From an uncultured Pelagibacteraceae bacterium (GTDB lineage: Bacteria > Pseudomonadota > Alphaproteobacteria > Pelagibacterales > Pelagibacteraceae), in the NCBI GenBank assembly GCA_902630065.1, contig CACOTF010000005.1, forward strand, positions 1 through 54,813: a DNA stretch of 54,813 nucleotides. Reading direction: 5' to 3'. The notes beneath the pieces are model-generated. The model was not told where the DNA came from and made no database searches. It saw nothing but the letters and a program-made list of their open reading frames with translations. Below, piece after piece: positions 36,374-41,919 of the stretch. The position numbers were made by a program, and so were the translations under genes. How positions within the stretch are numbered: the first letter of the stretch is position 1; each line of letters starts with the position of its first letter.

Positions 36374-36937
36374 ATGTATAAATTCCTTTTATTACTTTTT
36401 TTATTAATATTGCCAACAAAACTTAGTTCAGAAATAAATAATGAGTACTATGATAATAATTATTTCCATATTGGAAAAATGAACTCTTACAATAGTGAGT
36501 TCACTCTATATTTTAAAACACGGAAGAAAGCTATTTTAGCAAAGGGAGAATTTTCTAATTATATCAATGATTTTCCACAGGACTTGTACTTATATGATAA
36601 AAATTTAAATAAAGATTACCCTTTGATTTCATATGACTGGTTTCCAAAAAAAGTAAAAAAAATTTCAAAAAAATATAATTACCCACTTTTCCCAGAGGAT
36701 TTTGCTTACTATTTATTAAATGACAACAACACTTTAATTTTGATAAGTGCAAAAAAAAATTTTTATGAAAATTTAAAATATGACATAAAAAATAATAAGC
36801 TAGAAATTGCTAAAACTTCTGGCAAATTAAATTTTATAATCTCTTCTTATGCTGAAAACTGTGGTTACAAATCTTTAAAAAATAATTTTGAGTGCAATAT
36901 CTATAAACCTTTAATTTCTAAAAATTTGCTTAATTAA
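36374..36937 (+). CDS. Secreted protein of unknown function
   Basis: A 187-residue protein I do not recognise. It has a clear signal peptide (hydrophobic core LLLLFLLILP, cleavage near residue 19) and a mature part rich in Asn, Lys and Tyr, with beta-strand-like alternation and two cysteines near the C-terminus (ENCGYKS and FECNIYK), which could form a disulfide. No membrane segment or catalytic motif stands out. It follows the hydrolase gene by 48 bases and its 3' end overlaps the convergent ftsY by 8 bases. Confidence 0.7.
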   Translation: MYKFLLLLFLLILPTKLSSEINNEYYDNNYFHIGKMNSYNSEFTLYFKTRKKAILAKGEFSNYINDFPQDLYLYDKNLNKDYPLISYDWFPKKVKKISKKYNYPLFPEDFAYYLLNDNNTLILISAKKNFYENLKYDIKNNKLEIAKTSGKLNFIISSYAENCGYKSLKNNFECNIYKPLISKNLLN

Positions 36938-37847
36938 TTTGGGTAAAAGCATTTGCAAACTTCTCAGCTTCAAATATTTGTAAGTCATCCTCTTTTTCTC
37001 CCAGCCCAAGACCAACTATAGGTACTTTATATTTCTTTGAAATCGCAATCAATACCCCACCTTTTGCAGTTCCATCAAGTTTTGTCATTATGATGCCTGT
37101 GATTGGAAGTAATTTATTAAACTCTTCGAGTTGATTAATTATATTTTGCCCCGATGTTGCATCTAAAACTAAAATAACCTCGTGAGGTGCTGTTTCATCA
37201 CTTTTTTTAATTACATTTCCTATTTTTTTTAATTCATCCATTAAATTCTTTTTATTTTGCAATCTTCCTGCCGTGTCTACTATTACTTGATCTATATTTT
37301 GACTATGAGCTACTTCCATTGCTTTATAAGCAACTGAAGCCGGATCTGAACCGGGATCTGATTTTACAATTTTAGCATCAACCCTGTTAGCCCATTCTTC
37401 TAATTGATCAATAGCAGCTGCTCTAAATGTATCGCATGCTGAAAAAAGAACTTTATTATTATTTTGTATAAATATTTTTCCTAATTTTCCAATAGTCGTT
37501 GTCTTACCAACTCCATTAACACCTGAAACTAATATTATATTTGTCTTTTCTTTTTTTAAAAAAAAATCTTTCTTTTCTAGGGGTGTCATTAGTTCTAAAA
37601 TATAATTATTAAGTATTTCGAAAACTTCCTTGATTGGATCATTTTTAGGATCAATCTTTTTTTGAGCAATTATAGATTTTATCTCTGATGCTGCATCTAT
37701 ACCCACATCTGAGCCGATCAAGAATTCTTCTATTTTATCAAGAGTTGCATCGTCAATTTCTTTCTTAACTATTATTTCTTTAAGGCCTGATGCTATATTG
37801 CTTGCACTTCTTTTAAATCCGATTTTAAATTTTTCAAAAATACCCAT
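36930..37847 (-). CDS. ftsY: Signal recognition particle receptor FtsY
   Basis: SRP receptor GTPase that docks ribosome-nascent chain-SRP complexes at the membrane. The 305 residues are essentially the NG domain: G1 GVNGVGKTT (near 109-117), DTFRAAAIDQL, DTAGR, and TKLDGTAKGG near the end, plus the closing GLGE. The acidic N-terminal A domain of E. coli FtsY is missing and replaced by a short basic amphipathic start (MGIFEKFKIGFKR) that could bind lipid. It shares one base with dapF upstream. Its partner ffh lies nearby on the other strand. Confidence 0.96.
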   Translation of the reverse strand: MGIFEKFKIGFKRSASNIASGLKEIIVKKEIDDATLDKIEEFLIGSDVGIDAASEIKSIIAQKKIDPKNDPIKEVFEILNNYILELMTPLEKKDFFLKKEKTNIILVSGVNGVGKTTTIGKLGKIFIQNNNKVLFSACDTFRAAAIDQLEEWANRVDAKIVKSDPGSDPASVAYKAMEVAHSQNIDQVIVDTAGRLQNKKNLMDELKKIGNVIKKSDETAPHEVILVLDATSGQNIINQLEEFNKLLPITGIIMTKLDGTAKGGVLIAISKKYKVPIVGLGLGEKEDDLQIFEAEKFANAFTQIN

Positions 37848-38671
37848 TATATCTTGATATTAATTTTTTCAATTTCAGATACAGGACCTCTCATTTTTAT
37901 ATTTAATTCATTATCAATTTGAATATTTAAAATTCCTGTTGAAAATTCTATTTTTGAATTACTGTTTTGTAGTTGATTTAAATTAGCTGCGACTGCTGTT
38001 GCACATGCTGCAGTCCCACAAGCTTTAGTTAAACCTGCACCCCTCTCCCAAACTTTAATTTTGTAATGTTGTTCACTAATTTTCTGAGCTATTGTGACAT
38101 TGCATTTCTCAGGGAAAACTTCATGATTTTCTATTAATGGTCCATATTTTTTTAAATTTATTTTTTCTATATCCTCGCAAAAATATACGACATGAGGATT
38201 TCCAACATTCACTGCAATACCACCATTCATTTTATTTCCGTCAACATCAATCATGCCAAGTGACAGATTTTTAGTATCAAGATTTTTACTTAAAGGAATT
38301 TTGTTCCACTCTAAATTTGGAGTTCCAATTATTGTTTCAACATCTTTATTATTAAGAACTTTAGATTTTAATATTTTTGAGGATACCGAAATTTCAATTT
38401 CTTTTTTATTTTTTTCAATACTTAGTAAATAAGCAACACACCTAGTTCCATTTCCACATGCATCTGAGTGGCTTCCATCCGAGTTAAAAAAAGCAACATC
38501 AGCATCAGCTTTTTGACTTTTGTTTATGTAGATCAACTGATCGCACCCTATGAAATCTCTGTCACAAATTTTTAAGATTTGGTCATTTGATAAGTTTAAA
38601 CTATTTATTCTCTGATCAATAATAACAAAATCGTTACCTAATCCATCCATTTTAAATGCTTCAAATTCCAT
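37847..38671 (-). CDS. dapF: Diaminopimelate epimerase
   Basis: Epimerises LL- to meso-diaminopimelate for lysine and peptidoglycan synthesis. The 274 residues show the two catalytic cysteines in DACGNGTR (about 69-76) and KACGTAACATA (about 213-223), plus MDGLGNDFVIID at the start. The second motif has Ala in place of a Gly that is common in the family, which should be tolerated. The pairing dapF-ftsY is typical for alphaproteobacteria. It is divergent from ffh, and the 159 bases between them hold a structured RNA leader. Confidence 0.95.
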   Translation of the reverse strand: MEFEAFKMDGLGNDFVIIDQRINSLNLSNDQILKICDRDFIGCDQLIYINKSQKADADVAFFNSDGSHSDACGNGTRCVAYLLSIEKNKKEIEISVSSKILKSKVLNNKDVETIIGTPNLEWNKIPLSKNLDTKNLSLGMIDVDGNKMNGGIAVNVGNPHVVYFCEDIEKINLKKYGPLIENHEVFPEKCNVTIAQKISEQHYKIKVWERGAGLTKACGTAACATAVAANLNQLQNSNSKIEFSTGILNIQIDNELNIKMRGPVSEIEKINIKI

Positions 38672-38691
38672 ATAAATAATACTTAACTTAT

Positions 38692-38720
38692 TTATTGACT
38701 TTTTGAACCTCTAATATAAT
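38692..38720 (+). promoter_or_regulatory. Putative promoter of the ffh leader
   Basis: A perfect -10 box TATAAT is at 38715-38720. TTATTG at 38692-38697 gives a 17-base spacer; the better-looking TTGACT at 38695-38700 gives only 14. Transcription would start near 38726, just at the first base-paired segment of the structured leader, which supports the assignment. Confidence 0.5.
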
Positions 38721-38723
38721 TTA

Positions 38724-38830
38724 CGCGCACTTCCGCAAAATACAGCAATTTGCGGTGTCTTTGGAAACAAAGAGATCGACACCAGTCAGCGAGGGTTCGC
38801 CCACTGGTGCGATACTTGCTGTGCGAAATT
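38724..38830 (+). ncRNA. Structured 5' leader RNA of ffh with possible pseudoknot
   Basis: Three hairpins abut without linkers. P2 is CCGCAAA/TTTGCGG (38733-38739/38749-38755). P3 is TGTCTTTG/CAAA...GACA (38756-38763/38768-38771 and 38778-38781) with a GAAA loop and a 6-base bulge. P4 is CCAGT...GGG/CCCACTGG (38782-38786, 38093-style inner GGG at 38793-38795, with 38800-38807) with a TTCG loop and a 6-base bulge. The P2 loop ACAGCAA (38742-38748) is complementary to TTGCTGT (38816-38822). The 5' end CGCAC (38726-38730) can pair with GTGCG at 38807-38811 or 38821-38825. The structure ends 5 bases before the ffh start, so translational control is plausible. It lacks the conserved 4.5S RNA core. 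Confidence 0.7.
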
Positions 38831-40189
38831 ATGTTTGAAAATTTAACTAATAAATTTGAAGAAATTTTTTCTTCATTAAAAAAAGCTCCTTCTCTTGATG
38901 AAAAGCAAGTTGACGAGAGTTTAAAAGGTATAAGGTTGGCTTTATTAGAAGCCGATGTTTCTTTAGACGTAGTTAAGGAGTTTATTAGTAGAGTTAAGCC
39001 CAAAGCTCTAGGTCAGGAAATTATAAGATCAACTTCGCCCGGGGATATGGTTGTAAAAATCGTTTATGACGAAATAGTATCTTTTTTAGGTGATAAGAAT
39101 TCTGAAATCTCCCTTAATGCTGTCCCTCCAGTTCCAATCATGCTAGTTGGGTTGCAAGGTTCAGGAAAAACTACAACAACATCAAAATTAGCAAAATTTT
39201 TAGAAAAAAATAATAAGAAAAAAGTTATGATGGCTAGTTTGGACGTTTACAGACCTGCCGCACAAGAGCAATTGAGACTTTTGGGTGAACAAAATAATAT
39301 TGAAACTTTGCCAATTATAGAAGGCCAGCTTCCTGCTGACATTTGTAGAAGAGCTTTAAGTGCTGCAAATTTAAATGGTTGTGAAGTAGTTTTATTTGAT
39401 ACCGCTGGAAGAACACAAATAGATTTTCAAATGATGAATGAAATCAAACAAATTGAAACTATTATTAATCCTGCAGAAACTATACTAGTAGCAGATTCTC
39501 TAACAGGTCAAGTTGCTGCTAATGTAGCAAAGGAATTTAAAAATACAGTAAATTTGAGCGGCATTATACTTACAAGAGCAGATGGAGATGGAAGAGGTGG
39601 AGCTGCATTGAGTATGAAATATGTTGCTGAGGTCCCTATAAAGTTTCTTGGTGTTGGAGAAAAAATTGAGAATTTTGAAGCTTTCCATCCTGATCGAATT
39701 GCAAATAGAATTTTGGGAATGGGAGATATCGTTTCCTTAGTTGAAAAAGCTTCAGAAGATTTAGATCAAGAAAATTTAAAGAAAACAGAAGAGAAACTTA
39801 AAAAGGGTCAATTCTCGATGGAAGATTATCTTTCTCAATTACGTCAAATGAAAAAGATGGGTGGAATAGAAGGTATAATGTCATTTCTCCCTGGAGTTTC
39901 AAAAATTAAATCACAAATGGACCAATCAGGAATAGATGAAAAAATTATAACTCAAAATGAAGCAGTTATTTTATCAATGACAAAGCAAGAAAGAGAAAAT
40001 CCTAAAATTATAAATGGATCAAGAAAAAAAAGAATTGCTAATGGCTCAGGAACAGACATTGCCACTATCAATAAGTTGTTAAAACAATTTAAGATGATGT
40101 CAGAAATGATGAAAAAAATGTCTAAAGGAAACATGAAAGGAATGGCGGATAAAGGGATTCCGCCTGAACTATTTAATCAATTAAAATAA
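38831..40189 (+). CDS. ffh: Signal recognition particle protein Ffh
   Basis: SRP54 GTPase that binds signal sequences and 4.5S RNA and docks on FtsY. From the ATG at 38831 it has 452 residues: N domain, G1 GLQGSGKTTT (near 107-116), DVYRPAAQEQL, DTAGRTQID, RADGDGRGGA, then the Met-rich M domain (MEDYLSQLRQMKKMGG through MMSEMMKKMSKGNMKGM). An in-frame ATG at 38750 would add 27 residues (MRCLWKQ...), but that stretch is the structured RNA leader and does not resemble Ffh. It is followed 14 bases later by rpsP. Confidence 0.96.
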   Translation: MFENLTNKFEEIFSSLKKAPSLDEKQVDESLKGIRLALLEADVSLDVVKEFISRVKPKALGQEIIRSTSPGDMVVKIVYDEIVSFLGDKNSEISLNAVPPVPIMLVGLQGSGKTTTTSKLAKFLEKNNKKKVMMASLDVYRPAAQEQLRLLGEQNNIETLPIIEGQLPADICRRALSAANLNGCEVVLFDTAGRTQIDFQMMNEIKQIETIINPAETILVADSLTGQVAANVAKEFKNTVNLSGIILTRADGDGRGGAALSMKYVAEVPIKFLGVGEKIENFEAFHPDRIANRILGMGDIVSLVEKASEDLDQENLKKTEEKLKKGQFSMEDYLSQLRQMKKMGGIEGIMSFLPGVSKIKSQMDQSGIDEKIITQNEAVILSMTKQERENPKIINGSRKKRIANGSGTDIATINKLLKQFKMMSEMMKKMSKGNMKGMADKGIPPELFNQLK

Positions 40190-40203: not shown

Positions 40204-40629
40204 ATGTTAAAAATGAGACTATCAATGGGAGGGACTAAAAAAAGGCCAGTATATAAAATTGTTGTGGCCGATAGTAGATTTCCAAGAGACGGAAGGTTTA
40301 TAGAAAAATTAGGTTTTTATAATCCATTATTACCGAAAGATAAAAAGGAGAGAATTGGCTTAGACTCTGAGCGAATAAAATATTGGTTAGGTCAAGGAGC
40401 TCAGCCAACAACAAGAGTTGCAAGGTTATTGGGAGAAAACGATATAATGCCAATGCCCGAAAAAGGAAACAATCCTCAAAAAGCAATACCTAAAAAAGAC
40501 AGAAAAAAAGGTGAAGAAGGCGGCGAAGCTAAGGCAGCAGAAGCTCCAAAAGAAGAAGCTAAGGCAGCAGAAGCTCCAAAAGAAGAAGATAAGGCAGCAG
40601 AAGCTCCAAAAGAAGAAGAAAAGAAATAA
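40204..40629 (+). CDS. rpsP: 30S ribosomal protein S16 with repetitive C-terminal tail
   Basis: Small-subunit protein needed for 30S assembly. The first 80 or so residues are standard S16: [32 protein letters not shown] and [12 protein letters not shown]. The protein runs to 141 residues because of a charged tail that ends in three 10-residue repeats ([10 protein letters not shown] type). The ribosome-binding site GGAG lies just upstream. Its stop overlaps the trmD start by one base. The rimM gene usually found between rpsP and trmD is absent. Confidence 0.96.
40528..40617 (+). repeat. Three tandem 30-bp repeats in the rpsP tail
   Basis: Units at 40528-40557, 40558-40587 and 40588-40617 are nearly identical; the third differs at its first codon (GAT for GCT). 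They encode [11 protein letters not shown]. The near-identity at the DNA level suggests recent expansion by slippage or unequal recombination, so copy number may vary between strains. Confidence 0.93.
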
Positions 40630-41324
40630 TGTTAAGTGCTCGAGTATTTACGTTGTACCCAGATTTTTTTCCTGGATATCTTGGCCAAGGTATATTTGGT
40701 AAAGCTTTGTCTGATAAAAAATGGGAATTGGATACTGTAAATATTAGAGATTATGCATTTGATAAACATAAAACTGTTGATGATACTCCTTATGGAGGAG
40801 GCGAAGGCATGTTAATGAAAGCAGATGTATTAGCAGCATCGATAGATAAAAATGTTTCTGCAGACGAGAAAATTATTTATCTTAGTCCAAAAGGAAAGCT
40901 TTTTAATCATCAGTTAGCAAAAAAACTATCCAAGGAAAATACTATAAATATTATATGTGGTCACTTTGAAGGTGTGGATGACAGATTGCTCAATACAAGA
41001 AATATTGAAGAAATTAGTTTGGGAGATTTTGTTTTATCTGGGGGTGAAGGAGCATCTCTTGTAATTCTTGATGCGATATTAAGATTTATTCCAGGTATTC
41101 TAGGGAACAATAAATCAGCTCAAGAGGAAAGTTTTGAAAATGGACTTTTGGAGTACCCACAGTATACCAAACCTCAAGTTTGGGAGCAAAAAAGTGTGCC
41201 AGAAGTGCTATTATCGGGTGATCATGCCAAAATTAAAGACTGGCGTTTATCTCAATCTGAGGCTATAACACGCGACCGAAGACCAGATTTGTGGCAATTA
41301 TATAAAAAGACAAAAGATAACTAA
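40629..41324 (+). CDS. trmD: tRNA (guanine-N1)-methyltransferase
   Basis: SPOUT-class enzyme that methylates G37 of tRNAs from S-adenosylmethionine, preventing frameshifting. The 231 residues include the N-terminal [26 protein letters not shown] (about 55-68), and the trefoil-knot cofactor segment [21 protein letters not shown] near 130-150; DHAKIKDWR lies near the C-terminus. It starts on the last base of the rpsP stop and ends one base before rplS, so translation is tightly coupled. Confidence 0.96.
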
Positions 41325-41325
41325 T

Positions 41326-41919
41326 ATGAAGACAATAGAAGAAATTAATCAATCTAAAGTTAAGAAAATTATTTCTGAAAGACAACACCCTGAATTTTTT
41401 CCAGGCGATATAGTTAAGGTTGGTGTTAGAATTACAGAGGGCAAAAGAGATCGTATTCAATATTTTGAGGGAGTTTGTATTGCAAAAAAAAATAGAGATA
41501 TTAACTCTTCTTTTACAGTAAGAAAAATTTCCTTTGGTGAAGGGGTTGAGAGAACATTTGCTTTATATAGTCCAATTGTTGATACGATTAAAGTTGTCAG
41601 ATCAGGGAAAGTAAGAAGAGCAAAATTATATTATCTAAGAGATAGAACGGGTAAATCAGCTAGAATTGCAGAAAAAATAAAAAAGAAAATTGGGATTGAG
41701 GTAGAAACGAAAATCCAAGAAGTAACAGAAGAAAACGTAATGCCAGATACTGAGCAAAAGAGTTCGGAAGTAGCTAAAGAGGCATCTAAAGAAATTCCAA
41801 AAGATGAGACCAAAGCTGTATCTAAAAATGTAGATGAAAATAAAGATGTCAAAGAAAAAGCACCATCAGCTGAAAAAAAACCTGATGAAGCAGAAGGAAA
41901 TCCAGAAGTAAAAAAATAA
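41326..41919 (+). CDS. rplS: 50S ribosomal protein L19 with charged C-terminal tail
   Basis: Large-subunit protein at the 30S-50S interface. The first 125 or so residues are standard L19: [47 protein letters not shown], and [19 protein letters not shown]. Usual L19 has about 115-130 residues; this one has 197, with a Lys/Glu/Ala-rich low-complexity tail similar in composition to the S16 tail two genes upstream. A 9-base gap leads to leuC. Confidence 0.95.

Follow-up and report, generated by a model that had tools for sequence, protein, structure and literature searches.

A three-hairpin leader RNA upstream of ffh in Pelagibacteraceae extends the catalogued RF01793 family

Here we report that the leader of the ffh gene in an uncultured Pelagibacteraceae bacterium is a member of the already catalogued RNA family RF01793, a membership that is not in doubt, and that the full element consists of three abutting hairpins and has about twice its recorded size. 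The window analysed is a stretch of 54,813 nucleotides (contig CACOTF010000005.1 of assembly GCA_902630065.1), and all positions refer to it. The helices, their covariation, the place of the element before ffh and, in SAR11, the support from swap tests for a stem closing the three hairpins were observed directly; while the architecture is supported, we infer the function. On balance, and with modest confidence, we favour the reading that this RF01793 member is the leader of an ffh-rpsP-trmD-rplS transcript and would take up two states, through which a protein of the operon feeds back on expression.

The ffh locus, its promoter and the catalogued hairpin

The ffh gene starts with the ATG at 38831 and is followed on the plus strand by rpsP, trmD, rplS and a leuC-like gene of the aconitase family, with gaps of at most 14 nt (Table 1); rpsP, trmD and rplS are likely carried on one transcript with ffh. 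The dapF and ftsY genes are on the minus strand, divergent from ffh, and the genes for the SRP protein and its receptor flank one stretch (36930-38830), in which the dapF-ffh gap measures 159 bp. In the bS16 protein encoded by rpsP, KAAEAPKEE-like repeats form a C-terminal tail, the S16 domain match ending at residue 69 of 141, and bL19, encoded by rplS, has a long tail of lysine and acidic residues beyond a domain match that ends at residue 117 of 197. The rpsP and trmD genes overlap by one base at 40629 without rimM between them; a rimM-like open frame, recognised by eye, separates the two in some other alphaproteobacterial loci.

Table 1. Positions of the leader elements and downstream genes in the window
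Feature	Positions	Strand	Basis or description
Predicted promoter	38695..38722	+	TTGACT 38695-38700; 16-nt spacer; TAATTT 38717-38722
Rival -10 candidate TATAAT	38715-38720	+	14 nt after TTGACT
Discriminator and predicted transcript start (~38729 or 38727)	38723..38729	+	Inference from conservation
P0, 5' strand	38727..38734	+	Window GCAC; majority of SAR11 lineages RYUUCC
HP1	38733..38755 (38733-38739 / 38749-38755)	+	Pair counts in 45 SAR11 leaders and 58 other loci
HP2	38753..38778 (38753-56/38775-78; 38758-63/38768-73; GAAA loop)	+	Covariation
P3 (core of RF01793)	38780..38809 (38780-86/38803-09; 38789-92/38797-800)	+	Rfam match, covariation
Tail (UGYUGG-like) and P0 3' strand (38821-38824)	38810..38825	+	Conservation; tail single-stranded
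ffh (SRP54 protein)	38831..40189	+	PF00448 7.4e-69, PF02978 5.7e-31, PF02881 9.6e-19
rpsP	40204-40629	+	PF00886; 14 nt after ffh
trmD	40629-41324	+	PF01746
rplS	41326-41919	+	PF01245

The segment 38765-38817 matches the Rfam family RF01793 (ffh) over its full length (1-52) with 58.2 bits against a cut-off of 35. This is the sole Rfam match in the whole window, and a search of 38680-38860 up to an E-value of 5 returned nothing beyond it. The ffh-associated marine motif that an earlier note on this DNA had suspected of being already catalogued is thereby identified. In the accessible part of Meyer et al. 2009 (PMC2704228), the ffh motif is a single bulged hairpin before ffh with more than 600 metagenomic examples, present in Rhodobacterales, Sphingomonadales and Rhizobiales and absent from Rhodospirillales, Caulobacterales and other Rickettsiales; the same part describes it as unlike the 4.5S site and possibly regulatory, without a mechanism, and as detected by small-RNA metatranscriptomes. 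The leader of the window has the same hairpin before the same gene in the same lineage: the bulged hairpin P3 lies directly 5' of ffh, and its cytosines C38787 and C38802 form a C.C mismatch that most likely corresponds to the two conserved bulge cytosines mentioned in that part of the 2009 paper. In the RF01793 record the element is a lone bulged hairpin that spans 52 positions and has a 2x2 internal loop, whereas the leader of the window has two more hairpins, one internal-loop position that covaries as a pair, a 5' end near the promoter and a closing stem supported in SAR11. One hairpin is thus not the entire motif, and with HP1 and HP2 supported both in SAR11 and in other loci, the published boundary of RF01793 is too narrow. 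Literature searches on the motif name, ffh leaders and trmD-operon regulation returned no description of HP1 or HP2, of the closing stem or of any regulator, and no later mechanism for RF01793 was found in a search that most subscription papers lie outside.

The candidate promoter was compared across 135 distinct SAR11 leaders. In 121 of them TTGACW is separated by 16-17 nt from a TANTTT-like hexamer, the pattern having been made after viewing the sequences, and the mean match to TATAAT is 3.17 of 6 bases at the 14-nt spacing versus 2.13 and 2.19 at 16 and 17 nt. A consensus promoter scanner listed neither -10 candidate. Positions 38723..38729 are the least conserved, with 0.10-0.28 bits per base, and 1.17 bits are reached at 38730. 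We prefer TAATTT over TATAAT as the predicted -10 element and place the predicted start near 38729, or else near 38727, so that part of CGCAC (38726-38730) may be untranscribed. The predicted discriminator at 38723-38728 is G+C-rich (ACGCGC), a mark of stable RNA gene promoters. Beyond SAR11, 37 of 58 loci have a TTGAC that precedes HP1 by 36-46 nt, compared with 2-10 loci in other 11-nt bands; judging by this kept spacing, the element seems to begin at the predicted transcript start across much of the class.

Three abutting hairpins and their distribution

Homologous leaders were collected in two sets. The SAR11 set reduces 164 loci to the 135 distinct leaders and leaves out L030, L165 and L183, which contain N, as well as L164, which falls outside the pattern; the comparison set comprises 58 alphaproteobacterial loci beyond SAR11, picked by their P3.

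The leader 38724-38833 folds with -41.9 kcal/mol (z -4.41), a stability equalled by none of 200 shuffles. Three abutting hairpins do stand between the promoter region and the ffh ATG, as the earlier note had noticed, but it had drawn two of the three incorrectly. The view that this is a structured leader of ffh had been tied beforehand to the presence of covarying helices in homologous leaders, and such helices were found. In a tree-aware covariation test, run with our own script against 200 simulated alignments that keep the tree and the substitutions, five SAR11 pairs reach E-values below 1, every one inside the helices: 38783-38806 in P3 (E 0), 38758-38773 and 38760-38771 in HP2 (E 0 and 0.005), and the weaker HP2 pairs 38763-38768 (E 0.41) and 38753-38778 (E 0.61). 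These pairs define P3 and a revised HP2, which holds one G.G mismatch (38757/38774) and has 97.4% of its cells paired in SAR11 and 92.3% in the 58 other loci. The earlier version of HP2 with a 6-base bulge (GUGUC/GACAC) does not hold, being 83.1% paired, with no double change and with one pair broken in 22 of 45 leaders. The UUCG loop closed by GGG/CCC, also proposed earlier for P3, fares no better, its three pairs forming in only 91 of 108, 111 of 135 and 93 of 135 leaders.

In P3, all four pairs of the GCGA/UCGC helix are intact in 135 of 135 SAR11 leaders, and the C.C mismatch is kept in 58 of 58 other loci and in 133 of 135 SAR11 leaders. The combination 38788x38801, one of two positions left open by Rfam, is AC in 132 and UC in 3 SAR11 leaders, and in the 58 other loci it is AC in 33, GU in 7, CG in 7, AA in 6, UA in 4 and GC in 1; by this variation it behaves as a pair.

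The seven pairs of HP1 are each present in 120-135 of the 135 SAR11 leaders. Among 45 SAR11 leaders 95.6% of its cells are paired, with double changes at three pairs, and in the 58 other loci 83.9% are paired, with double changes at seven of seven. In the tree-aware test on SAR11 no HP1 pair appeared at E 1, the best one, 38735-38753, ranking seventh among all pairs. Outside SAR11, double changes occur at every one of the 14 HP1 and HP2 pairs. With P3 added the structure has 25 pairs and is 93.9% paired versus 35-49% when slid, as counted in an alignment of the 58 loci that was fitted to the model. Without P3, the HP1+HP2 stretch gave a mean z of -1.92 against dinucleotide shuffles in the 55 of 58 other-locus rows that were long enough (40 below -1 and 5 above 0), and a mean z of -3.50 in 30 SAR11 leaders.

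Matches to RF01793 occur in 251 of 297 genomes of the organism's own family, in 103 of 117 genomes sampled from its order and in 106 of 385 genomes sampled from its class, 81 of the last above the cut-off. The Ffh protein served as query in thirteen order genomes that lack a match, and an assembled 5' end of ffh was found in 0 of 13: ffh is cut at a contig end in two, five gave FtsY-level matches only, and six gave none, so that none of these genomes is a shown absence of the motif. In these drafts ffh being cut (2) or not found (11) hints at assembly breaks nearby.

Two covariance models were built, whose E-values are rough by the tool's own statement: R1 from the SAR11 leaders, and the joint model R2 from 87 loci, 56 of them non-SAR11, the source alignment of R2 (A4) holding one antisense row (L048, plus strand). 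R1 aligned at full length to 58 of 59 non-SAR11 loci and over P3 only in the remaining one, which by itself proves little because these loci were preselected by P3. With R2, representing the whole element, 226 of the 385 class genomes are matched versus 106 for RF01793, in a sample that overlaps the genomes used to build R2, and at least 120 of the 226 are new relative to RF01793. Forty new genomes were taken from the best-scoring ones listed, and in all 40 the match precedes ffh by 3-52 nt and shares its strand, at a median distance of 21 nt with positions set by Ffh alignment. A wildly variable start-codon distance (18-292 nt), obtained with pattern-guessed starts, was dropped in view of these alignments. 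Of nine additional genomes that RF01793 does not match, six have a diverged copy ahead of ffh (R1 E-values 0.00015-0.047). The 67 matches of R2 in a 299-genome phylum sample, whose class make-up is not stated, are all of this class. No second copy of the element was found within 20 downstream loci up to an E-value of 1. A leader model also matched the minus strand at 38766-38855, in the same hairpins (28.8 bits with R2), and seven other leaders have similar antisense matches; the match is taken as an echo of the hairpins.

The same data bear on the possibility that the element acts in trans as a small RNA of its own, released by cleavage or termination from the 5' portion of the ffh mRNA. Rfam types RF01793 as an sRNA, and the metatranscriptomic detection given in the accessible part of PMC2704228 would suit such a molecule, as would an RNA-seq peak listed as ffh leader RNA in Bartonella bacilliformis (PMC7717549); PMC5596092 lists an RF01793 transcript in Mesorhizobium huakuii. 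However, no terminator-like site was found in 38600-38900, the SAR11 start codon lies only 7-28 nt beyond the equivalents of 38823, and all 40 checked new matches (drawn from the best-scoring listed) adjoin ffh, so we regard a trans-acting product as unlikely.

A probable closing stem and the strand shared by two hairpins

Between P3 and ffh lies a tail in which, among the 135 SAR11 leaders, U38813, U38817 and U38820 are kept in 131-134 and G38818 and G38821 in 124. In the best fold of the window the 5' end pairs with 38820-38825 or 38821-38825, depending on the assumed start, and closes the three hairpins. Since the letters of this closing stem (P0) vary among lineages, it was assessed by a swap test, in which the pairing of each leader's own 5' end with its own tail was compared with that obtained with tails from other leaders. 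When the 5' segment consisted of the final 8 nt up to and including the CC of HP1, none of 5000 swaps equalled the SAR11 leaders at n=72, 30 or 22; a longer 5' stretch with thinner sets gave p 0.002-0.02. For the discriminator taken by itself, p was 0.11-0.50 in the sets of 72 and 30 leaders and 0.02-0.08 in the set of 22. The rows are related, and these p values are therefore not exact probabilities. Whole-leader folds of 30 leaders are expected to contain 3.84 closing pairs versus 2.77 after swapping (0 of 5000) with one start and 4.89 versus 3.91 (p 0.0022) with the alternative start, and at least three closing pairs form in 20 or 22 of the 30 leaders versus 45 or 64% of own and swapped combinations. 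From these comparisons, P0 likely makes the element a four-way junction in SAR11. Some SAR11 leaders (L199, L220) carry an SD-like GGAG beyond the stem, which speaks against the favoured reading. Outside SAR11 the closing stem is weak or absent: the swap test gave p 0.008-0.12 with the short 5' end in the 58 loci, 0.34-0.90 in 23 loci with a well-formed HP1, and a null result with a 16-nt 5' stretch (p 0.16-0.37).

The earlier note had approached this part of the leader through particular strands. It gave CGCAC two partners, and both GTGCG copies are present; the copy at 38807 is not a free partner because its first three bases are paired in P3 in 135 of 135 leaders. The pairing with the copy at 38821 stands as a closing pairing beside the start codon, but all five of its pairs occur in just 5 of 135 rows; other lineages build the equivalent closing stem with different letters. 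The 7-base match of ACAGCAA in the HP1 loop with TTGCTGT in the tail is likewise in the sequence, but a general role for this pseudoknot lacks support. A switch in which this pseudoknot competes with CGCAC/GTGCG would draw on the seven pairs possible in 9 of the 135 distinct leaders, the window's included, on a loop-tail duplex of -10.1 kcal/mol in the window and on a longest-run test with p 0.016 at n=72. We think it very unlikely, given that the swap tests gave p 0.04-0.61 for duplex energy and, in thinner sets, 0.10-0.18 for the longest run (0.016-0.18 overall), that CGCAC/GTGCG is complete in 5 of 135 leaders and that part of CGCAC may precede the transcript. The loop-tail pseudoknot would at best be local to the window's clade. 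Of the competing strands proposed, the idea of a strand with two possible partners is supported in SAR11, but it involves strands other than those named.

That strand is CGG 38753-38755, which is common to HP1 and HP2 and in which C38753 is able to pair with G38735 or G38778. Structures with a long HP1 or a long HP2 differ in the ownership of this CGG and score alike: in 45 diverse leaders the long-HP1 structure is 97.9% paired (shuffles 91.2, slid versions 39-48), with double changes at 11 pairs versus a shuffle mean of 7.0, and the long-HP2 structure is 98.0% paired, with 11 double-change pairs. In two lineages C38753 changed jointly with G38735 and G38778 (GCG to AUA). A change of GCG to GUU in two further lineages preserves the HP1 pair as a wobble but abolishes the one in HP2, and 38753x38778 is C-A in 15 of the 58 non-SAR11 loci; these cases indicate that the strand exchange may be a SAR11 feature. 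By thermodynamic estimates, the energy gap between the two states is 0.7 kcal/mol in the window and -6.2 to +7.9 kcal/mol over 30 leaders. State I of the window's fold likewise closes the junction, and closing is therefore not necessarily what distinguishes the two states.

A simpler role would be that of a stable 5' cap, in which the transcript starts in or at a helix that slows 5'-end-dependent decay, with no ligand involved. The TTGAC-HP1 distance kept in 37 of 58 non-SAR11 loci, a predicted pairing of the 5' end in 20-22 of 30 SAR11 leaders and the very stable fold are all in keeping with it. A cap, however, has no need for a C.C mismatch as well kept as that of P3 (58 of 58 and 133 of 135), nor for a conserved tail or a shared strand that changes with both of its partners, and we judge this explanation rather unlikely.

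Possible control by a protein of the operon

The favoured two-state reading can be set out as follows. The three abutting hairpins would start at or near the transcript start of ffh-rpsP-trmD-rplS, and in SAR11 the closing stem would turn them into a four-way junction whose end is only a few bases from the start codon of ffh. The CGG at 38753-38755 would pair with either the 5' strand of HP1 or the 3' strand of HP2. Once it is in HP2, the 5' UUCC strand would be free for the tail, and the junction could close by the ribosome site and lower ffh expression; with the CGG kept in HP1, the tail would be free more often. Binding of an operon protein, Ffh or bS16, to one of the two forms could then shift the equilibrium and so provide feedback.

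Conserved unpaired bases are few, namely the C.C mismatch, A38779 and part of the tail, and we therefore read the element as a protein site rather than a small-ligand site. The leader position and the alternative pairings would also fit a small-molecule riboswitch for ffh; against it stand this scarcity of conserved unpaired bases and the fact that we know of no metabolite common to the operon genes, and a riboswitch seems very unlikely to us. The best reading has the leader answer to a protein, for which the operon supplies Ffh and bS16 as candidates, along with bL19.

The leader has the Ffh system in common with the bacterial small SRP RNA (RF00169), and its GUCAG 5' strand, which adjoins an internal loop, is reminiscent of domain IV in 4.5S RNA. 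It differs from RF00169 in that 38788x38801 is G-U, C-G, U-A or G-C in 19 of 58 relatives. A search of 38680-38860 against SRP RNA families, RF00169 included, gave no match up to an E-value of 5, and a regular SRP RNA is present elsewhere in the genome, which indicates that the leader is not the SRP RNA. The accessible part of PMC7143759 mentions Ffh with 4.5S RNA only.

Autoregulatory ribosomal-protein leaders offer a second comparison. Like them, the leader stands before genes for ribosomal proteins (bS16 and bL19), which lie downstream, and has several hairpins with few unpaired conserved bases; it differs in that the first gene here is ffh. Compared by sequence with the 4475-base locus holding the genome's own 16S, the leader gave only matches of 8-9 bases (E 1.2 or worse). 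Gene order does not separate target from ligand, since in 49 of 50 genomes rpsP lies 3' of the motif, sharing its contig and strand (distance 1.4-5.1 kb), and an attempt to identify the target gene from genomes in which ffh and rpsP are apart failed for this reason. In the four members of family f23, rpsP stands 3.4-5.1 kb from the motif, and other genes lie between the ffh motif and rpsP in the one locus examined (G624); this distance slightly favours Ffh as the regulator.

Section 4.3 of a 2024 review (PMC10931766) states that information on how the trmD operon is regulated does not exist and that bS16 binds cruciform DNA. Together with a leader that likely folds into a four-way junction, this makes bS16 worth testing. 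By analogy, bS16 might recognise the junction of the leader by its shape and push the strand shared by HP1 and HP2, an idea to which we give a small probability. If it were true, the supply of the SRP protein, bS16, TrmD and bL19 would be coupled, and the leader would represent the first control element known for this operon as well as a case of junction-shape recognition serving feedback.

Taking the true extent and the alternative pairings of the element into account about doubles the number of genomes in which it is seen (226 versus 106 of 385, in the sample overlapping the source of R2), and concrete mutants can now be defined for the control of ffh and the trmD operon. Binding of the leader by Ffh or bS16, if it occurs, would let one RNA link the supply of the export machinery to that of ribosomes.
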